Shown piece after piece: positions 33,910 to 50,571 of a stretch of 64,000 nt of DNA. The translations under genes and the position numbers were made by a program. How positions within the stretch are numbered: the stretch's first letter is position 1; every line of letters starts with the position of its first letter. Location: positions 806,001 to 870,000 of the forward strand of contig JARFXO010000001.1 of NCBI GenBank assembly GCA_029194665.1, written 5' to 3'. This DNA comes from Nitrospira sp. GTDB lineage: Bacteria; Nitrospirota; Nitrospiria; Nitrospirales; Nitrospiraceae. The notes below the pieces were generated by a model. The model saw only the letters and a program-made list of their open reading frames with translations, was not told the origin of the DNA and did no database searches.

Positions 33910-34187
33910 CCTCCATGAACGCCCACTCGAATGGTGCCCCGTCCGTCGTGTAGCGGTGGACATGGTGGATCGCATACTTCTGGTGCCGAGTGCTGGCCTT
34001 TGGACGTGAGGCCTTTCGGAAACGCTTGGCCTTTTACAAAGCGAGGTCCGACAAGGGGTACAGTTTGACCGATTGTTGGTCTACGGGCGTGATGCGGCAG
34101 CATCGAATCACGGAGGCATTGACCACCGACCGGCATTTCGAACAAGAGGGCTTCATCGCGCGCATGCGTGATCCCTCTCGGCACTGA
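33910..34187 (+). pseudogene. Broken partial copy of a VapC-like PIN toxin gene
   Basis: The sequence matches the 3' half of the downstream vapC (34945-35226) at about four bases in five. Reading needs at least two frame changes: RRVAVDMVDRILLVP in one frame and LAFGREAFRKRLAFYKARSD, then TEALTTDRHFEQEGFIA, in another. The N-terminal half with the first catalytic Asp is absent. So this is a non-functional duplicate or a relic of an older copy. It shares the first frame change with the downstream copy. Confidence 0.65.
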
Positions 34188-34254
34188 CACGCTTATCCAA
34201 CTCTCAGGCATCACCAGAAGAAGGGTTCCGTTCAGGCGGGACCGGAAAGCTTAA

Positions 34255-34385
34255 CAGGCTGCGGAACAACTCGATTCGCGTGCTTCGACATGCTCAGCAT
34301 GAACGAAAAATCTCAGCAAATTCAATGACCGCTCCGTTCGTCCTGAGGCTCTCGAAGGATGAACAGAAGGTTTTTCCGCAGCCTG
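34255..34385. repeat. MITE/REP-like palindromic element
   Basis: The element is bounded by a perfect 12-bp inverted repeat: CAGGCTGCGGAA at 34255-34266 and TTCCGCAGCCTG at 34374-34385. Inside is a second imperfect inverted pair, CTTCGACATGCTCAGCATGA... near 34283 and CGTTCGTCCTGAGGCTCTCG... near 34334. It encodes nothing. A related inner unit recurs at 38342-38420. Such nested dyads are typical of dispersed, possibly transposase-mobilised intergenic repeats. Confidence 0.7.
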
Positions 34386-34568
34386 CTGGATGTCCGATTG
34401 TTTCCTCTCTCAGACATTTCCTGGGAGACAATGGCCTTCCCGGTAGTCAGCGAAGCCCTAAGACGCTACGTGGTCGATGCAAAAAGCAGAGAGTTTCGAC
34501 TCCATCTCGCCAGCCTACCGGACATGCCGGGGTTCTAGCAGGGGCAACTTACCGGCTTAGCAGGAAAC

Positions 34569-34598
34569 TTGTCGGGTTCTCCAATTTTTGGCTATAAT
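34569..34598 (+). promoter_or_regulatory. Sigma-70-type promoter of the toxin-antitoxin pair, predicting a leaderless mRNA
   Basis: A perfect -10 TATAAT lies at 34593-34598 and TTGTCG, 18 bases upstream at 34569-34574, serves as -35. Transcription should begin about 7 bases after the -10, which is exactly the A of the ATG at 34605. There is no room for a Shine-Dalgarno, so the antitoxin mRNA is probably leaderless. Confidence 0.6.
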
Positions 34599-34604
34599 TC
34601 GAAC

Positions 34605-34805
34605 ATGCCTAGTTCATCCATAACCCGCAAACACACTCGCCGCCGAGGACGCCGCATTCCCAACAAACGCGCGTCTCGTAGCGAACCGATCTGGCAACAG
34701 ATTCTCAATATCGTCCGTCGTGTGCCGGAGTCTGATTTGCATAAGCTGCCGACCGATCTGGCTGAGCATCACGATCACTCCCTCTCGGGTCAGGCACGCT
34801 CTTGA
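34605..34805 (+). CDS. VapB-like antitoxin candidate
   Basis: A 66-residue basic protein (MPSSSITRKHTRRRGRRIPN). It has an Arg/Lys-rich start and a helix (EPIWQQILNIVRRVPESDLH) followed by LPTDLAEHHDHSL. Its stop overlaps the start of the PIN-domain toxin frame by four bases, the usual antitoxin-toxin layout. It has no ribbon-helix-helix motif I can recognise, so the assignment rests mainly on position. Confidence 0.6.
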   Translation: MPSSSITRKHTRRRGRRIPNKRASRSEPIWQQILNIVRRVPESDLHKLPTDLAEHHDHSLSGQARS

Positions 34806-35226
34806 GGATCATCTTTGCCGACACGGCCTACTGGCTCGCGTTGGCCAGCCCGTTTGATCGTCATCACAGTCTCGCTGTCGACCTGTCGACGACGTTGGAG
34901 AACAGCCGTCTTTTAACGACCGATGCGGTGTTGACCGAACTGCTCAATGCCCATTCGAATGGCGGCCCATCTATAGCCGTGCGGCAGTAGACATGGTGGA
35001 CCAAATACTCCTTGCCCCGAGCGTCCGTGTGCTGCCATTTGGGCGAGAGACCTTTCGGAAGAGCCTGGCTTTTTACAAAGGGAGACCAGACAAGGGGTAC
35101 AGCTTGACCGATTGTTGGTCCATGGTCGTGATGCTGCAGCATCGAATCACGGAGGCATTGACCACCGACCGGCATTTCGAACAAGAGGGCTTCATCGCCC
35201 TCATGCGTACTCCATCTCCCCGCTAA
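34802..35226 (+). pseudogene. VapC-type PIN-domain ribonuclease toxin gene with a -1 frameshift
   Basis: TTG start at 34802. The first frame (to a TAG at 34988-34990) gives IIFADTAYWLALASPFDRHH and TTDAVLTELLNA, holding the first PIN Asp and the Glu. The remainder continues in the -1 frame: AAVDMVDQILLAP, RPDKGYSLTDCW and TEALTTDRHFEQEGF, supplying the last acidic residues. Joined, they make a full ~140-residue PIN domain of the VapC family. The shift falls near 34960-34985. Either the toxin is dead, the assembly has an error, or expression uses frameshifting; no classic slippery heptamer is visible. Confidence 0.7.
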
Positions 35227-35564
35227 ATCGCTCTCACCCTCGCCTGCAATAGTCGGAATCTGGTGATCGCCTGGATCAAATGGATACATCCCGTCGTTCA
35301 TCTTGCTGGTCTACCGGATAGGCCGGCGTTTTGGAAAAAGTTCCCTGCCGTCGCATGTCATCTCTGCATTGAGACATTTGGATACACCTGAATCTGTTCG
35401 GATACAGGTACGTAGTCATTCGGATGTCATGGTCTTGTGGGGATCCGTTCGAAAATCGCCCACATTGGGATTGTTCGTCGGTAGGCAAGGTGATTGCTTA
35501 GCAGGTTCTTTCGGTATACAAAGGTGTCCGTCGAGCGCGGGTGAGCCGACATGAGGAGGAGACG
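35227..35564. other. Intergenic region upstream of the TPR-CHAT gene
   Basis: About 340 bases without a supported gene or a recognisable repeat. It should contain the promoter for the TPR-CHAT/TIR block. I see no clear -10/-35 pair. Confidence 0.35.
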
Positions 35565-38312
35565 ATGCCCAGGGGCACAAGAATCCTCAGATGGCTGAAA
35601 AAAGGAGTGGTCCTGATTTATCTGCTTGGAGTCACTTCAGCATCGGTTGCACAACAAAACTCGATCCAAGACGCGGAGGCACTCGACCAGCAAGCCGGTA
35701 GGCTTTATGGACAGGGCCGTTACAAAGAGGCCATTCCTCTGGTACGGGAGGCCCTGGCGATTCTGGAAAAGGCGCTGGGGCCGGATCATCCGGACAGGTT
35801 AAAGTCGCTCGACCATCTGGCCATGCTCTATCAGGATTCGGGGACTTATGAGGAGGCGGAGCCACTGTATAAGCAGGCACTGGCCATTCGGGAAAAGGCG
35901 TTGGGACCAGAGCATCTGGACACATCGGTGTCGGTCAATCATCTGGCAAGGCTCTATCATGACACCGGAGCCTACGGACAGGCGGAGCCGCTGTACAAGC
36001 GGGCGCTGGCGATCCGGGAGAAAGTGCTGGGGGCCGAGTATCCAGGTACTGCCATGTCGCTTAGCAATCTGGCGGGACTCTATATAGACACGGGAGCCTA
36101 TAGACAGGCGGAGCCGTTGCTGGAGCGAGCCTTGGCGATCCGTGAAAAGGTACTGGGTCCAGAGCATCCGGATACGGCTTATTCTCTCAGCAATTTGGGG
36201 CTGCTCTATTGGAACACCGGAGACAACGGACAAGCGGAGCTGCTGTACAAGCGGGCGCTGGCAATCATGGAAAAGGCACTGGGACCGGAACATCTGGTTA
36301 CGGCTAGATCCCTCAACAATCTGGCGGTGCTCTATGAGGAGACAGGGCGCTTTGAGCAGGCAGAGCCGTTGCTGGAGCGAGCCCTGGCGATCCGTGAAAA
36401 GGCACTGGGACCGGAACATCTGGATACGGCTAGATCCCTCAACAATTTAGCGGTGCTCTATTGGGTGACCGGGGCCTACGGACAGGCGGAGGCACTCCTT
36501 AAGCGGGCACTGGCGATCCAAGAGAAGGTCTTGGGGCCGCAGCACCAGGATACGGCCCGATCGCTCGACATTCTAGCAACCTTGTATTGGGCGACAGGCG
36601 ATCTGGCCAGAACAGGACCATTATATAGAAAGGCACAAGCCATTCACGAAAAAACCCTGGCGACTTTTCTTCTGACCGGATCGGAATCGCGCAAGCAAGC
36701 CTATCTCGCTCAGCTGAGTGGTCAAACATTCATGCGGGTCTCACTCTCGCTTACAACGCCGGACCATCAAGCCAAGGTATTAGGACTCCGGAGTGTGCTG
36801 ATGGTAAAAGGGCGTGTGTTGGATGTCATATCGGACAGTGCTGGACGTCTGCGGCGAAATGCAAAGCCAGAAGATCGGGGTCTATTCGAACAACTCAGCG
36901 AGGTCGCACAGAAATTATCAACTCTGACCCATCAGGCCCTTGGAAATCTTCAGCCCGAGGCTTATCGCCAGGAATTACAAGATCTCATGACTCGGCAGGA
37001 ACAACTCGAAGCGGATCTGTCTAAACGTAGTGCAGAATTTCGGCAGCAGATCGCTCCTATCGCCCTGGCAGCTACCCAGACCGCGATCCCTCAAAAGACA
37101 GCCCTCGTAGAATGGTATTGCTATAAGCCATTTGATCCCAACGCTAAGGATGCGCAATCGAGACTGGGTAAGCCGCGCTATGTGGCCTATGTGCTTAAGC
37201 GAATAGGTGAGCCGGCGGTGATGGATTTTGGTGATGCGGAAGCACTTGACCAGTTAATTAAAGATTTTCGAACGGGACTGGGCGATCCAACAAACACCTA
37301 TGTTCAAGAGTTGGCCAAGGAGTTATACGACAAACTGCTAAGACCCTTACAGCATCACTTAAGCAATATCGATCATCTACTCATTTCACCGGACGGCGCA
37401 TTGAATTTGGTGCCTTTTGCCGCGCTTCTTGATGAAACAGGAGCATACCTAGGCTCAAAGAAAGGAATCACCTACGTTACGAGTGGTCGGGACTTGGTAC
37501 GATATGGGACACCGTCTCTTGGGAAGGGTGATGCAATCATTGTCGCTGATCCGAACTATGGAGAAGTTGCTGGTGAAGTGGCAAAGGTGGAACCTTCCAA
37601 TCATATGAAGCGCTCAGTCGATTTGGATCGTGGTGCGATGAGCTTTACGTCACTGCCTGGAACGGCTGAAGAGGCCAAGACACTCAAAACGTTGCTTAAA
37701 GTTCCTGATGACCATGTGCTGACGCAAGCCAAGGCCACGGAGGAGCGGTTCAAACAGCTTCACGGGCCGCGCATTCTTCACGTGGCCACGCATGGGTTTT
37801 TCCTGAAAGACAGAGAGGTTTCGAACGCAGCGCTCAGACGCAATTTCATTCAAGACATAGCCCCTGTCCCATTAGGTGAGAATCCCTTGCTGCGGTCTGG
37901 GCTGGCTTTGGCCGGGGCTAATCAGCGACGCTCGGGAGAAAAGGATGACGGAATTTTAACTGCAGCGGAGGTCGCACAGATGGACCTCCGTGGGACCCAG
38001 CTCGTGGTGCTTTCGGCTTGTGAGACCGGTGTAGGCGATGTGCAGAACGGCGAAGGAGTCTACGGGCTGCGGCGAGCACTTGTGCTTGCTGGGGCAGAAT
38101 CCCAAGTCACATCGCTCTGGAAAGTGGCAGATGAGGCGACGAAGGATCTCATGGTGGACTACTACCAGCGACTCTTGAAAGGCGAGGGCCGCTCGGAGGC
38201 TTTGCGCAATGCGCAATTGGCCATGCTGAAGAGCAAGGATCGATCGCACCCCTATTACTGGGCGGCGTTTGTTCCCATTGGCAACTGGACGCCGCTGACG
38301 AAAAGTCGGTAG
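35565..38312 (+). CDS. Exported TPR-CHAT (caspase-like) protein
   Basis: A 915-residue protein from ATG 35565, with AGGAGG five bases upstream. A signal peptide (GVVLIYLLGVTSASVAQQ) is followed by eight 42-residue TPRs of the kinesin-light-chain kind (consensus LNNLAVLYxxTGxYxQAEPL, then ALAIREKxLGPEHxDTARS), a linker helix region, and a C-terminal CHAT domain. The CHAT cysteine-protease dyad is present: H743 in HVATHGFF and C819 in LSACETGVGD. CHAT proteases are caspase relatives and TPRs bind partners that may gate them. The signal peptide would send it outside the cytoplasm, unlike the cytosolic TPR-CHAT of type III-E CRISPR. It heads a block with TIR and Ig-like proteins. Confidence 0.85.
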   Translation: MPRGTRILRWLKKGVVLIYLLGVTSASVAQQNSIQDAEALDQQAGRLYGQGRYKEAIPLVREALAILEKALGPDHPDRLKSLDHLAMLYQDSGTYEEAEPLYKQALAIREKALGPEHLDTSVSVNHLARLYHDTGAYGQAEPLYKRALAIREKVLGAEYPGTAMSLSNLAGLYIDTGAYRQAEPLLERALAIREKVLGPEHPDTAYSLSNLGLLYWNTGDNGQAELLYKRALAIMEKALGPEHLVTARSLNNLAVLYEETGRFEQAEPLLERALAIREKALGPEHLDTARSLNNLAVLYWVTGAYGQAEALLKRALAIQEKVLGPQHQDTARSLDILATLYWATGDLARTGPLYRKAQAIHEKTLATFLLTGSESRKQAYLAQLSGQTFMRVSLSLTTPDHQAKVLGLRSVLMVKGRVLDVISDSAGRLRRNAKPEDRGLFEQLSEVAQKLSTLTHQALGNLQPEAYRQELQDLMTRQEQLEADLSKRSAEFRQQIAPIALAATQTAIPQKTALVEWYCYKPFDPNAKDAQSRLGKPRYVAYVLKRIGEPAVMDFGDAEALDQLIKDFRTGLGDPTNTYVQELAKELYDKLLRPLQHHLSNIDHLLISPDGALNLVPFAALLDETGAYLGSKKGITYVTSGRDLVRYGTPSLGKGDAIIVADPNYGEVAGEVAKVEPSNHMKRSVDLDRGAMSFTSLPGTAEEAKTLKTLLKVPDDHVLTQAKATEERFKQLHGPRILHVATHGFFLKDREVSNAALRRNFIQDIAPVPLGENPLLRSGLALAGANQRRSGEKDDGILTAAEVAQMDLRGTQLVVLSACETGVGDVQNGEGVYGLRRALVLAGAESQVTSLWKVADEATKDLMVDYYQRLLKGEGRSEALRNAQLAMLKSKDRSHPYYWAAFVPIGNWTPLTKSR
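35682..36660 (+). repeat. 126-bp in-gene tandem repeats (TPR units)
   Basis: About eight 126-bp units encode the TPRs. Neighbouring units share long runs of identical bases (for example GGAGCGAGCC and GGCGATCCGTGAAAAGG recur), so they appear recently expanded and prone to unequal recombination. Confidence 0.75.
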
Positions 38313-38341
38313 TGGAGTGTTCGGAAAATTCGTATCATAAT

Positions 38342-38420
38342 CCGTTCGCCCTGAGACCTGTCGAAGGGCGTGTGAATTTATGCAGTTCCGTTCATGGTTC
38401 GACATGCTCACCACGAACGT
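38342..38420. repeat. Second copy of the dispersed hairpin repeat
   Basis: CGTTCGCCCTGAGACCTGTC near 38343 and GGTTCGACATGCTCACCACG near 38397 form an imperfect inverted pair of the same type as the inner unit at 34283-34366, in the opposite arm order. It lies in the gap between the TPR-CHAT and TIR genes and could act as a terminator or processing site. Confidence 0.6.
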
Positions 38421-38462
38421 ATTCTGGGACTCTCTGCATTAGAGATAAGCAAGGCTATACCC

Positions 38463-39173
38463 ATGGCCGGTATCTTCATTAGTTATCGCCAAGCGGATGC
38501 GAAAGCCTGGGCGATCGGTTTACGCGATGATCTTGCCAAGGCGTTTGGTGACGATCAAGTTTTCCTCGACAAGGATGCCCTTGGTCCGGGGAACTGGCGG
38601 GACCAGTTGCAGCGGGCGCTGGCTAAATGCACGGTCGTTCTCGTGGTGATCGGGCGTCAGTGGTTGACCACTGCCGATGAGCAGCAACGGCCTCGGATCG
38701 GTTTGCCTGATGATGTGCATCGCCAAGAAATTGCCCTTGCCTTAAGTCATCGAGGCGTGACGGTTATTCCTGTCCTGGTCGATGATGCCGCAATGCCGAA
38801 AGGTGAACAGCTCTCGGAGGACATTCGCGTCCTAACCGATCAGCAGGCCTACAAGGTTGGCGATACCAAGGCCCGCCGTAAGGCGGATCTGGAGGTGCTG
38901 ATCAAGGGCATTGAATCAGTCGGTGGGCTCACTGCAAAGTCGGATGTGGCGGAAGGTGAGTCGGACAAGGGACAGTCCCCTTGGTACAAGTTGGATTACT
39001 CTGCGGTCGGAATTGCGTTTGTGCTCACGGTGGTCTTGGCCATGATCGGGTACAGTTCAGGAGGGTTTACCGAGAAAGAAATTCCTGTCCTGCTCGTCAT
39101 TTCCTATGGCCTCGCGCTCGGCGGCAAACGGATCTGGCGTCTCATCAGTAATCGGCGAAAGAGAGTGGCATGA
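38463..39173 (+). CDS. TIR-domain protein with C-terminal membrane anchor
   Basis: A 236-residue protein starting MAGIFISYRQADAKAW. The TIR domain (residues 1-140) has the box-1 strand GIFISYR, DQVFLDKDALGPGNWRDQL, and the region VHRQEIALAL whose E89 is a candidate NADase glutamate. Two membrane helices follow (VGIAFVLTVVLAMIGYSSG and PVLLVISYGLALGG), leaving a short basic tail. TIR domains either cleave NAD+ or act as adaptors in immune signalling. It overlaps the next gene by ATGA. Start at 38463 is the natural family start; the frame is open upstream but runs through the repeat. Confidence 0.8.
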   Translation: MAGIFISYRQADAKAWAIGLRDDLAKAFGDDQVFLDKDALGPGNWRDQLQRALAKCTVVLVVIGRQWLTTADEQQRPRIGLPDDVHRQEIALALSHRGVTVIPVLVDDAAMPKGEQLSEDIRVLTDQQAYKVGDTKARRKADLEVLIKGIESVGGLTAKSDVAEGESDKGQSPWYKLDYSAVGIAFVLTVVLAMIGYSSGGFTEKEIPVLLVISYGLALGGKRIWRLISNRRKRVA

Positions 39174-40207
39174 GGTGGCGGTTGTGCTGGAGGATTCTTG
39201 GAGGTCTGTCGCTTCTCGTCGTCCTTCTGGTTTCTGCAACAGCGTCAGCCCAGACTGACACCCAGAACGATGCAATGGATCTTATCTGCCTCACGGATCG
39301 TCCTACGATCGTTGAGGGAGAGAGCACCAGGCTGCAAGTGGTCGTTGGGACTCAGGATGGCAATCCGACTGCACGAGCGGTCTCATTTCAATGGCAAGTT
39401 AGCGATGGAACTGTCCAAGGCAGTGGTCCAGAGGTTGAATGGAATCTGAGCAAGGTCCGTATCAAGTCCGGCGAGTCGCATACAAAGGTGACGGCGACGG
39501 TCAAGGCGATGACGGCAGGCTGTACAGTAGAGGTGTTCATTGGCAAAAAGGAGCCAGCAGGTGGAGAGGACTCAACTGAGGGGACCCGCGGTGGACTGAT
39601 TACTGCCCGACGGTATCTATTGCCCAATCAAGAGGAAAAACCCAACTACGGTCTCTACAGCTACTTGCTTCTGAGTGCGGAGCCGCAAGGTGAAAAGGAA
39701 ACGGGGCGCGCTCTCCAGACGCTGGAGGCCTGCTTGCGGGTCATGCGCCAACTCGACAAGCTCGGTCGGTACGTCCGTCCGAGCCAGCTGAATGCGACGC
39801 ATATCCCGGTGACAGACCTGCCAAAGGGGAAGGAAGCCGATCCAGACTTCGCGAAGAAGGTGTTAGCTGTCTACGATTTTGATAGAGCAAAAGTACTGTT
39901 GAATAAATTCGAGAAAAGCTATGACCGAGGCCCCTACCTGATTTCAGTGAAACCTCCACTCACTCAAGCGCCTGAACCTGTTCCGGTCCATATCCTTCAA
40001 GACTTCACGGACGTCTCCCCCAGACTGGCAGCTAGAGTCGTGAGGGATTTTGAATATCTCGCCGCTCAGGAACGCACCTGGAGTGAGCAGGCAATGCGCA
40101 AGTTGCCCTCCAAGCTCCGGAACTACCTCGCAGTCGCGAGCGAGGTGACACCGGAGATCGCTGGCAGCCTGAAAACAATGATTCAGTTCATCAAGCTGGG
40201 TGAGTAG
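39170..40207 (+). CDS. Exported Ig-like protein of the TPR-CHAT/TIR block
   Basis: A 345-residue protein with a signal peptide (ILGGLSLLVVLLVSATASA-QT). Residues ~35-125 fold as a PKD/Ig-like domain (PTIVEGESTRLQVVVGTQDG, then VSFQWQVSDGTVQ), with two Cys that could pair. The C-terminal two-thirds is helical and unlike any family I know (LQTLEACLRVMRQLDKLG, ARVVRDFEYLAAQERTWSEQ). It is translationally coupled to the TIR gene. It may be the extracytoplasmic sensor or a substrate of the CHAT protease; both are guesses. Confidence 0.65.
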   Translation: MRWRLCWRILGGLSLLVVLLVSATASAQTDTQNDAMDLICLTDRPTIVEGESTRLQVVVGTQDGNPTARAVSFQWQVSDGTVQGSGPEVEWNLSKVRIKSGESHTKVTATVKAMTAGCTVEVFIGKKEPAGGEDSTEGTRGGLITARRYLLPNQEEKPNYGLYSYLLLSAEPQGEKETGRALQTLEACLRVMRQLDKLGRYVRPSQLNATHIPVTDLPKGKEADPDFAKKVLAVYDFDRAKVLLNKFEKSYDRGPYLISVKPPLTQAPEPVPVHILQDFTDVSPRLAARVVRDFEYLAAQERTWSEQAMRKLPSKLRNYLAVASEVTPEIAGSLKTMIQFIKLGE

Positions 40208-50430: not shown

Positions 50431-50571
50431 AAAGAAAAATGGCCAGGGTAATTTGGAGGGACCTGATTTCTGCGATTATTTCTGTGGATAACTCCGTTGA
50501 TAAGTGATCAGAATCGGCTATGAGATTCGCGTTGCGACTATTCACAGCCTTTCCTCTCATTTCCTCAATAT

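Follow-up and report, generated by a model that had tools for sequence, protein, structure and literature searches.

What could join an exported peptidase of the CHAT family, a membrane-bound TIR protein and a second exported protein whose genes stand side by side on one strand of a Nitrospira sp. genome? The genes lie in a 64,000-nucleotide stretch of contig JARFXO010000001.1 (positions 806,001 to 870,000; hereafter the window), which belongs to a genome of 4.8 Mb in 17 contigs whose closest named relatives with the locus are Nitrospira metagenome-assembled genomes (MAGs). The original prediction, made from the letters of the window, had described a signal-bearing TPR-CHAT protease with catalytic residues H743 and C819, a TIR domain with E89 on two membrane helices, and an Ig-like secreted protein; all gene coordinates and named residues are correct, and Pfam matches, predicted helices and inspection of the residues bear out the first two descriptions. 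It had offered a transmembrane relay as one explanation, and this is the best reading, because the two helices of the TIR protein belong to a hairpin family that partners an exported protein and is fused to it in four loci. Our analysis supports the block as a real, conserved association, with the TIR domain anchored physically in the membrane and its partners located outside. Specifically, we propose, with a probability of roughly 0.45, that the locus represents one form of a modular system of the cell envelope, in which a core made of the hairpin and an exported protein with a domain that we name GLYSY takes on a peptidase and a TIR domain as additions and serves as an outside-in alarm. The architecture, export signals, catalytic residues, recurrent co-occurrence and fusions are all read from the sequences themselves.

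The exported protein is more than the Ig-like protein it had been taken for. The Ig fold and the signal sequence are both present, but the Ig fold is confined to residues 34-128, and the rest is a different domain. A description as simply Ig-like was rejected, as the Ig part is absent from many relatives and the C-terminal domain is conserved. This C-terminal domain comprises about 200 residues and is named here after its G-L-x-S-Y core; residues L150, G161, L162, S164, Y165, L167, Y235, G254 and P263 are invariant in 26 aligned sequences. In none of the 26 members does a Pfam family cover the domain, and the Protein Data Bank (PDB) contains no sequence that matches it. The alignment reveals no conserved set of His, Cys and Asp residues, which suggests that GLYSY serves in binding, not in catalysis. 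In the Ig part, Cys40 and Cys118 are conserved in most of the relatives that carry it. The structural model of the protein has predicted local distance difference test (pLDDT) values mostly of 77-98, with one block at 66. The Ig domain fills the match lists of Foldseek and VIA-align searches with the whole protein, and structural matches to B4GALNT1 were discarded at a root-mean-square deviation (rmsd) of ~23.

In most loci, GLYSY is directly preceded by a protein of 60-80 aa with two transmembrane (TM) helices, often with a 4-nt overlap between the genes. The loop of these stand-alone hairpins is short, often P-L-x-x-x-E-T, and their tail is basic. In the window, the gene that precedes GLYSY is the TIR gene, and the start of the third gene overlaps its stop by 4 nt (ATGA), as had been predicted. 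A hidden Markov model (HMM) was trained solely on stand-alone hairpins, with no TIR protein included, and searched against 7,442 stop-to-stop frames (529 kb), 102 of which contain at least two TM-like segments. All 27 matches with E<1 adjoin or are fused to GLYSY genes, two of them duplicates, from DNA represented twice (L041/L061 and L067/L120). The training hairpins match by construction; independent evidence comes from the TIR proteins and loci L054, L058, L114, L115, L117 and L118. In particular, the model recovers the TIR protein of the window at its C terminus (E=2.6e-5) and that of Methylococcaceae (E=3.7e-4). Shuffles that preserve the hydrophobic, basic and polar classes rarely reach the hairpin score: per 1000 shuffles, none does so for the window, L054 or L125, one for L066 and two for L038. 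The HMM result indicates that the two helices of the TIR protein belong to the partner family, and the TIR domain is, as judged from these matches, an N-terminal addition to that family. With the G-L-x-S-Y core in the exported protein and a family hairpin at the C terminus of the TIR protein, the window locus fits the proposed GLYSY-hairpin module.

The main argument that these parts form one transmembrane complex comes from fusions. The hairpin is fused to TIR in Nitrospira and Methylococcaceae, and hairpin and GLYSY are found in one polypeptide in L054, L114, L115 and a Hymenobacter plasmid protein (E=7.9e-10). The same evidence bears on the idea that three unrelated genes have come to lie together by chance, which we consider very improbable: a 150-bp repeat-bearing gap between the CHAT and TIR genes and a paralogous locus without CHAT would suit it, whereas the recurrence across phyla, the fusions and the hairpin HMM result speak against it and contradict it for the hairpin-GLYSY pair.

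A search for co-occurrence, as the original prediction had suggested, finds the CHAT, TIR and third genes again in two further Nitrospira genomes (L036 and L037), where the genes downstream are also the same; a third copy (L035) is cut at a contig end. A Methylococcaceae genome also carries a TIR-hairpin protein, GLYSY and CHAT. In total, TIR-hairpin proteins accompany GLYSY in three Nitrospira orthologues, in three paralogous Nitrospira loci and in Methylococcaceae; one of the paralogous pairs lies in the same genome as the window, shares 46-58% identity with the window pair and has no CHAT gene adjacent. Relatives of the exported protein are present in 12 of the 197 genomes of the relatives search. 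The GLYSY profile matches proteins of Halomonas, Acetobacteraceae, Methylococcaceae, Rhodopseudomonas, Acidobacteria/Terriglobia, Rokubacteria, Calditrichaeota, FCPU426 and Nitrospiria; among Alphaproteobacteria, 1 of 385 has a match, among the plasmids searched one from Hymenobacter (L125, NZ_CP141190.1), and among viral contigs and phages none was found. Weak Acidobacteria matches restricted to positions 24-113 were set aside as probable carboxypeptidase-regulatory-like N-termini brought in by L057 rather than GLYSY. A core of hairpin and exported GLYSY, spread sparsely across several phyla, is therefore well supported by these sequences. The Hymenobacter locus encodes a single-chain hairpin-Ig-GLYSY protein beside an M48-like gene, and a Tle1-like phospholipase gene lies ~5.6 kb upstream of it. 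Loci L056 and L060 are seemingly the same DNA, binned as Betaproteobacteria in one MAG and as Acidobacteria in another, which makes the host of that M48-GLYSY locus uncertain.

The peptidase, by comparison, is exchangeable. The conserved core of the block is hairpin and GLYSY, not CHAT and TIR, and CHAT can be replaced by a C14 caspase or by M48. CHAT as an obligatory partner is ruled out by the paralogous TIR-GLYSY locus and by the C14 and M48 loci. CHAT adjoins GLYSY in Nitrospira and in Methylococcaceae (convergent, at a contig edge); the GLYSY neighbour is a TPR-CHAT protein of 1366 aa in Acetobacteraceae and a TPR-CHAT protein of 1732 aa with a two-partner-secretion (TPS) domain in Acidobacteria SZAS-9, where it sits beside a gene resembling its outer-membrane TPS partner. 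C14 adjoins GLYSY in Halomonas (Sel1-C14), two Rokubacteria (Ig-C14) and Terriglobia (WD40-C14), and the peptidase of L118, which has no Pfam C14 match, is related by BLAST to the caspase of L051 (E=4e-15). The Halomonas Sel1-C14 protein shares 40-43% identity over the caspase domain, and a second matching stretch at the N terminus, with Nitrospira Sel1-C14 proteins that lie ~2-15 kb from all three paralogous TIR-GLYSY loci; in Halomonas cerina, the one C14 gene detected is the GLYSY neighbour. M48 adjoins GLYSY in L056, L061, the Hymenobacter plasmid (weakly, E=3e-4) and a group of Nitrospira loci (L042-L046). All GLYSY-adjacent peptidases with a readable N terminus begin with a signal or lipoprotein sequence, as judged by eye. 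Furthermore, CHAT or C14 lies within 5 kb of GLYSY in 6 of 19 non-Nitrospira lineages, for which the chance probability is 2e-7 at the mean measured density of CHAT and C14 genes and 2e-5 at the highest; the C14 counts are lower bounds, and at a density of 5% the probability is still 2e-4.

Two rival explanations take their start from this pairing. In the first, GLYSY would inhibit a toxin-like periplasmic peptidase and the hairpin would anchor the inhibitor. The gene pairing is tight and the peptidases are interchangeable, as this toxin-immunity arrangement would have it, whereas several hairpin-GLYSY loci have no peptidase, and GLYSY stays conserved whether its partner peptidase belongs to clan CD or to the unrelated M48, which would not be expected of a specific inhibitor; we judge the arrangement quite improbable. 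In the second, GLYSY would restrain a membrane-damaging hairpin until the peptidase cuts GLYSY and the hairpin opens the inner membrane, with TIR as an extra effector in some versions. This is suggested by the small size of the two-helix protein, whose gene overlaps that of GLYSY tightly (ATGA), and by operons of bacterial gasdermins (bGSDMs), which likewise pair a membrane-associated effector with caspase-fold peptidases of the same C14 and CHAT types (PMC9612521). The hairpins, however, show no evident pore-forming design, their loops having conserved polar residues and their tails being basic, and Pfam detects no gasdermin domain in the three proteins of the window. Unlike in the bGSDM operons, the peptidase and GLYSY are here exported, and the membrane partner is a two-helix hairpin; bGSDMs and their proteases are cytosolic. 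A gasdermin-like executioner is unlikely in our estimate.

The TIR domain provides the candidate output. The gene begins with the ATG at 38463, within a longer in-frame open reading frame that begins at 38394. Foldseek retrieves SARM1 TIR structures with the model of the domain (E=6e-9; TM-score 0.82-0.86 by target length); the pLDDT of the model is 70, so that the fold is trustworthy and the details are not. Specifically, E89 (codon 38727-38729) occupies the position of the catalytic glutamate, aligning in hmmsearch with the Glu of SARM1 WVHKEIVTAL, which we take to be the SARM1 catalytic residue, and it is invariant in seven aligned relatives. Among orthologues, the ratio of nonsynonymous to synonymous substitution rates (dN/dS) is 0.07-0.12 for TIR, a sign of strong purifying selection, and 0.17-0.30 for the exported GLYSY protein. 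The conservation of the domain together with its catalytic Glu argues that TIR is used. In fold and glutamate, the protein is thus like the SARM1-type TIR NADases, and NAD hydrolysis is predicted.

The window peptidase begins with the hydrophobic signal sequence MPRGTRILRWLKKGVVLIYLLGVTSASVAQ, and AGGAGG lies 5′ of its ATG at 35565. Its repeats match TPR_12 (E=6e-114), and its catalytic domain scores 297.5 bits against PF12770, for which the curated cut-off is 24. The His-Cys dyad is formed by H743 (37791-37793) in LHVATHGFF and C819 (38019-38021) in VVLSACETG, and both motifs are also present in the L036 and L037 orthologues. By domain score and dyad, the protein is a member of the CHAT peptidases, and proteolysis is predicted. 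The gap that separates its gene from the TIR gene contains one half of a REP-like palindrome, a half also found at 34281-34305, and the CHAT link is for this reason weaker than that between TIR and the exported protein. No terminator-like site was found in the 150 bp, and co-transcription of the CHAT gene with the TIR-GLYSY pair is likely on sequence grounds. The last ~150 residues of CHAT are 88-96% identical to those of L036 and L037, and such a mosaic, with a conserved end and a divergent front, marks CHAT as the variable component and suggests repeated exchange of its sensor half. One Nitrospira congener carries an extra CHAT C-terminal fragment.

Table 1. Positions of the three genes, their domains and the intergenic gap in the window
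Feature	Position	Strand	Basis
Exported TPR-CHAT peptidase, 915 aa (signal sequence, TPR array, CHAT)	35565..38312	+	Pfam, residue check
CHAT catalytic domain, residues 581-907	37305..38285	+	PF12770 E=1.4e-88
CHAT-TIR intergenic gap, 150 bp, with copy (38395-38419) of REP-like palindrome half	38313..38462	.	Sequence
TIR-hairpin protein, 236 aa	38463..39173	+	Pfam, alignment, structure model
TIR domain, ~residues 1-155, SARM1-like	38463..38927	+	PF13676 (TIR_2) E=2e-13
Conserved TM hairpin of TIR protein, ~residues 175-236	38985..39170	+	HMM E=2.6e-5; model helices 179-199, 204-235
Exported Ig-GLYSY protein, 345 aa, signal sequence, start in TIR stop (ATGA)	39170..40207	+
Ig/PKD-like domain, residues 34-128	39269..39553	+	VIA-align Z up to 9.6, 88 residues, rmsd 2.4
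GLYSY domain, residues 144-342	39599..40195	+	26-sequence alignment

How might such parts work together? We infer the physical complex, the cleavage, the direction of signalling, the NADase output and the defence role as follows. The TM hairpin in the inner membrane and the exported GLYSY protein would form one complex; the peptidase would share the extracytoplasmic compartment with GLYSY, the hairpin would cross the inner membrane, and TIR would face the cytosol. The peptidase may sense envelope damage or an invader through its TPR part (elsewhere Sel1, WD40 or Ig) and cut or rearrange the GLYSY protein that the hairpin holds. The hairpin would relay this change, and the TIR domains would assemble and hydrolyse NAD, so that the cell is stopped or killed. 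In versions that lack TIR, the hairpin-GLYSY complex may act itself or via a further partner.

A related proposal casts the locus as a two-chain bacterial Toll-like receptor, in which an Ig-GLYSY sensor on the hairpin would switch a cytosolic TIR NADase, with a periplasmic caspase-fold peptidase in control and the core reused across phyla with different peptidases; we regard it as possible and hold it tentatively. In animal Toll-like receptors, a cytosolic TIR is linked across the membrane to an extracytoplasmic sensor, and an exported protease acts upstream in the Toll pathway. The window locus resembles them in tying a predicted cytosolic TIR across the membrane to an outside part and in its exported protease, but it consists of separate polypeptides, its hairpin has two helices instead of one, and its TIR is SARM1-like rather than of the adaptor type. 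The comparison is an analogy only, as the extracytoplasmic parts appear not to be homologous.

Several observations weigh against the modular alarm. Of the 20 hairpin-GLYSY loci outside Nitrospira, about half lack a neighbouring CHAT, C14 or M48 peptidase. The periplasmic loop of the hairpin is only ~5-10 residues long, and a signal would need to run through the helices. The front half of CHAT shares 45-66% identity among orthologues, with synonymous divergence (dS) saturated, whereas TIR and GLYSY share ~90%; its history differs from theirs. The flanks, in a Pfam scan of ten neighbouring proteins, are mostly housekeeping genes, and the block does not sit in a defence island, the setting in which the original prediction had proposed to look for it. 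Finally, the M48 partners also fit ordinary envelope quality control.

The last two points also favour an envelope quality-control or assembly platform, in which hairpin-GLYSY, as a membrane scaffold or an activator, would keep exported peptidases close to the membrane to serve proteostasis or the maturation of surface proteins, and TIR would be a scaffold or regulator with no NADase activity. M48 peptidases are known from outer-membrane quality control, and they are the partner in several lineages; furthermore, an OmpA-GLYSY fusion is found in L064, and autotransporter barrels adjoin the paralogous Nitrospira loci. Against the platform stand the patchy spread already described, which is unlike that of a housekeeping function, and the retention of the SARM1 catalytic Glu in every TIR relative aligned, and we consider this explanation somewhat unlikely. 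In the five Nitrospira-family genomes of the L042-L046 group, an M48 gene and a GLYSY lipoprotein gene face genes for a TIR-STAND-TPR protein, a Ras-like GTPase and an OmpA-type membrane protein. Like the window locus, these clusters place GLYSY, here in a lipoprotein, next to an exported peptidase and a TIR protein, but they differ in that TIR is carried by the STAND-TPR protein on the opposite strand and in that the HMM found no hairpin.

The surroundings of the locus show further features. The slot upstream of CHAT varies: in the window (33986-35232) it holds a 208-nt duplication (86%) and remnants resembling a toxin-antitoxin pair, in L036 (12779-13498) a HEPN and nucleotidyltransferase pair, and in L037 (11255-11626) a HepT gene. 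REP-like palindromes lie at 34255-34385 and, in the CHAT-TIR gap, at 38340-38420; the reading frame across the gap palindrome is kept in L037. The GC skew changes from negative to positive at ~34000-36000 of the window; a replication origin near this change is not indicated by any cluster of DnaA boxes, the sole strict box in the window lying far off at 50483. Elsewhere in the same genome, contig C7 (168000-186000; L018 and L019) carries two TIR_2-like genes and TIR/SEFIR-like, C14, 1884-residue CHAT and patatin-like genes; this cluster has no GLYSY match and looks like a conflict island. On contig C9 (46000-56000; L020), a CHAT gene lies beside large secreted filamentous-type proteins, in a layout that resembles the TPS-CHAT of L063 but lacks GLYSY.

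Is the system already known under another name? The original prediction could not assign the block to a defence system, and PADLOC and NCBIfam scans of the block likewise return only partial TIR or TPR matches and no system. The window TIR has the fold and the catalytic-position Glu of SARM1-type NADases, including the TIR effectors of SPARTA, Thoeris and CBASS, but unlike them it continues into a TM hairpin whose partner is an exported protein. None of the Thoeris, CBASS or SPARTA partners (ThsA; CD-NTase or SAVED; short Argonaute; STING) is detected in the block by Pfam and PADLOC or in ten neighbouring proteins by Pfam. NTP-dependent and TRADD-N/Death-domain conflict systems, as described in PMC7159879 and PMC8195603, share TIR, caspase and TM modules in variable combinations; in the passages searched, the former text names neither CHAT nor signal peptides nor TM hairpins, and the latter neither signal peptides nor the periplasm. 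In contrast to such systems, the window locus has no STAND, MoxR or GAP1 component. No described system with the layout of the window is present in Pfam, PADLOC, PDB sequences or the accessible parts of the open literature searched, the Burroughs and Aravind 2020 survey lying outside the search. On this absence from the sources searched rests the newness of the core pair and its layout, which we regard as a new category with a predicted function.

In bacteria, peptidases of the caspase fold and TIR NADases are known as immune effectors that act in the cytosol. If the modular alarm is true, a peptidase outside the inner membrane, linked by a hairpin to a cytosolic TIR, would let bacteria pass a death or defence signal from the outside to the inside of the cell, and two protein families, the hairpin and GLYSY, would gain a function. 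The pair also offers a candidate partner for the exported CHAT and C14 proteins of soil and sediment bacteria.

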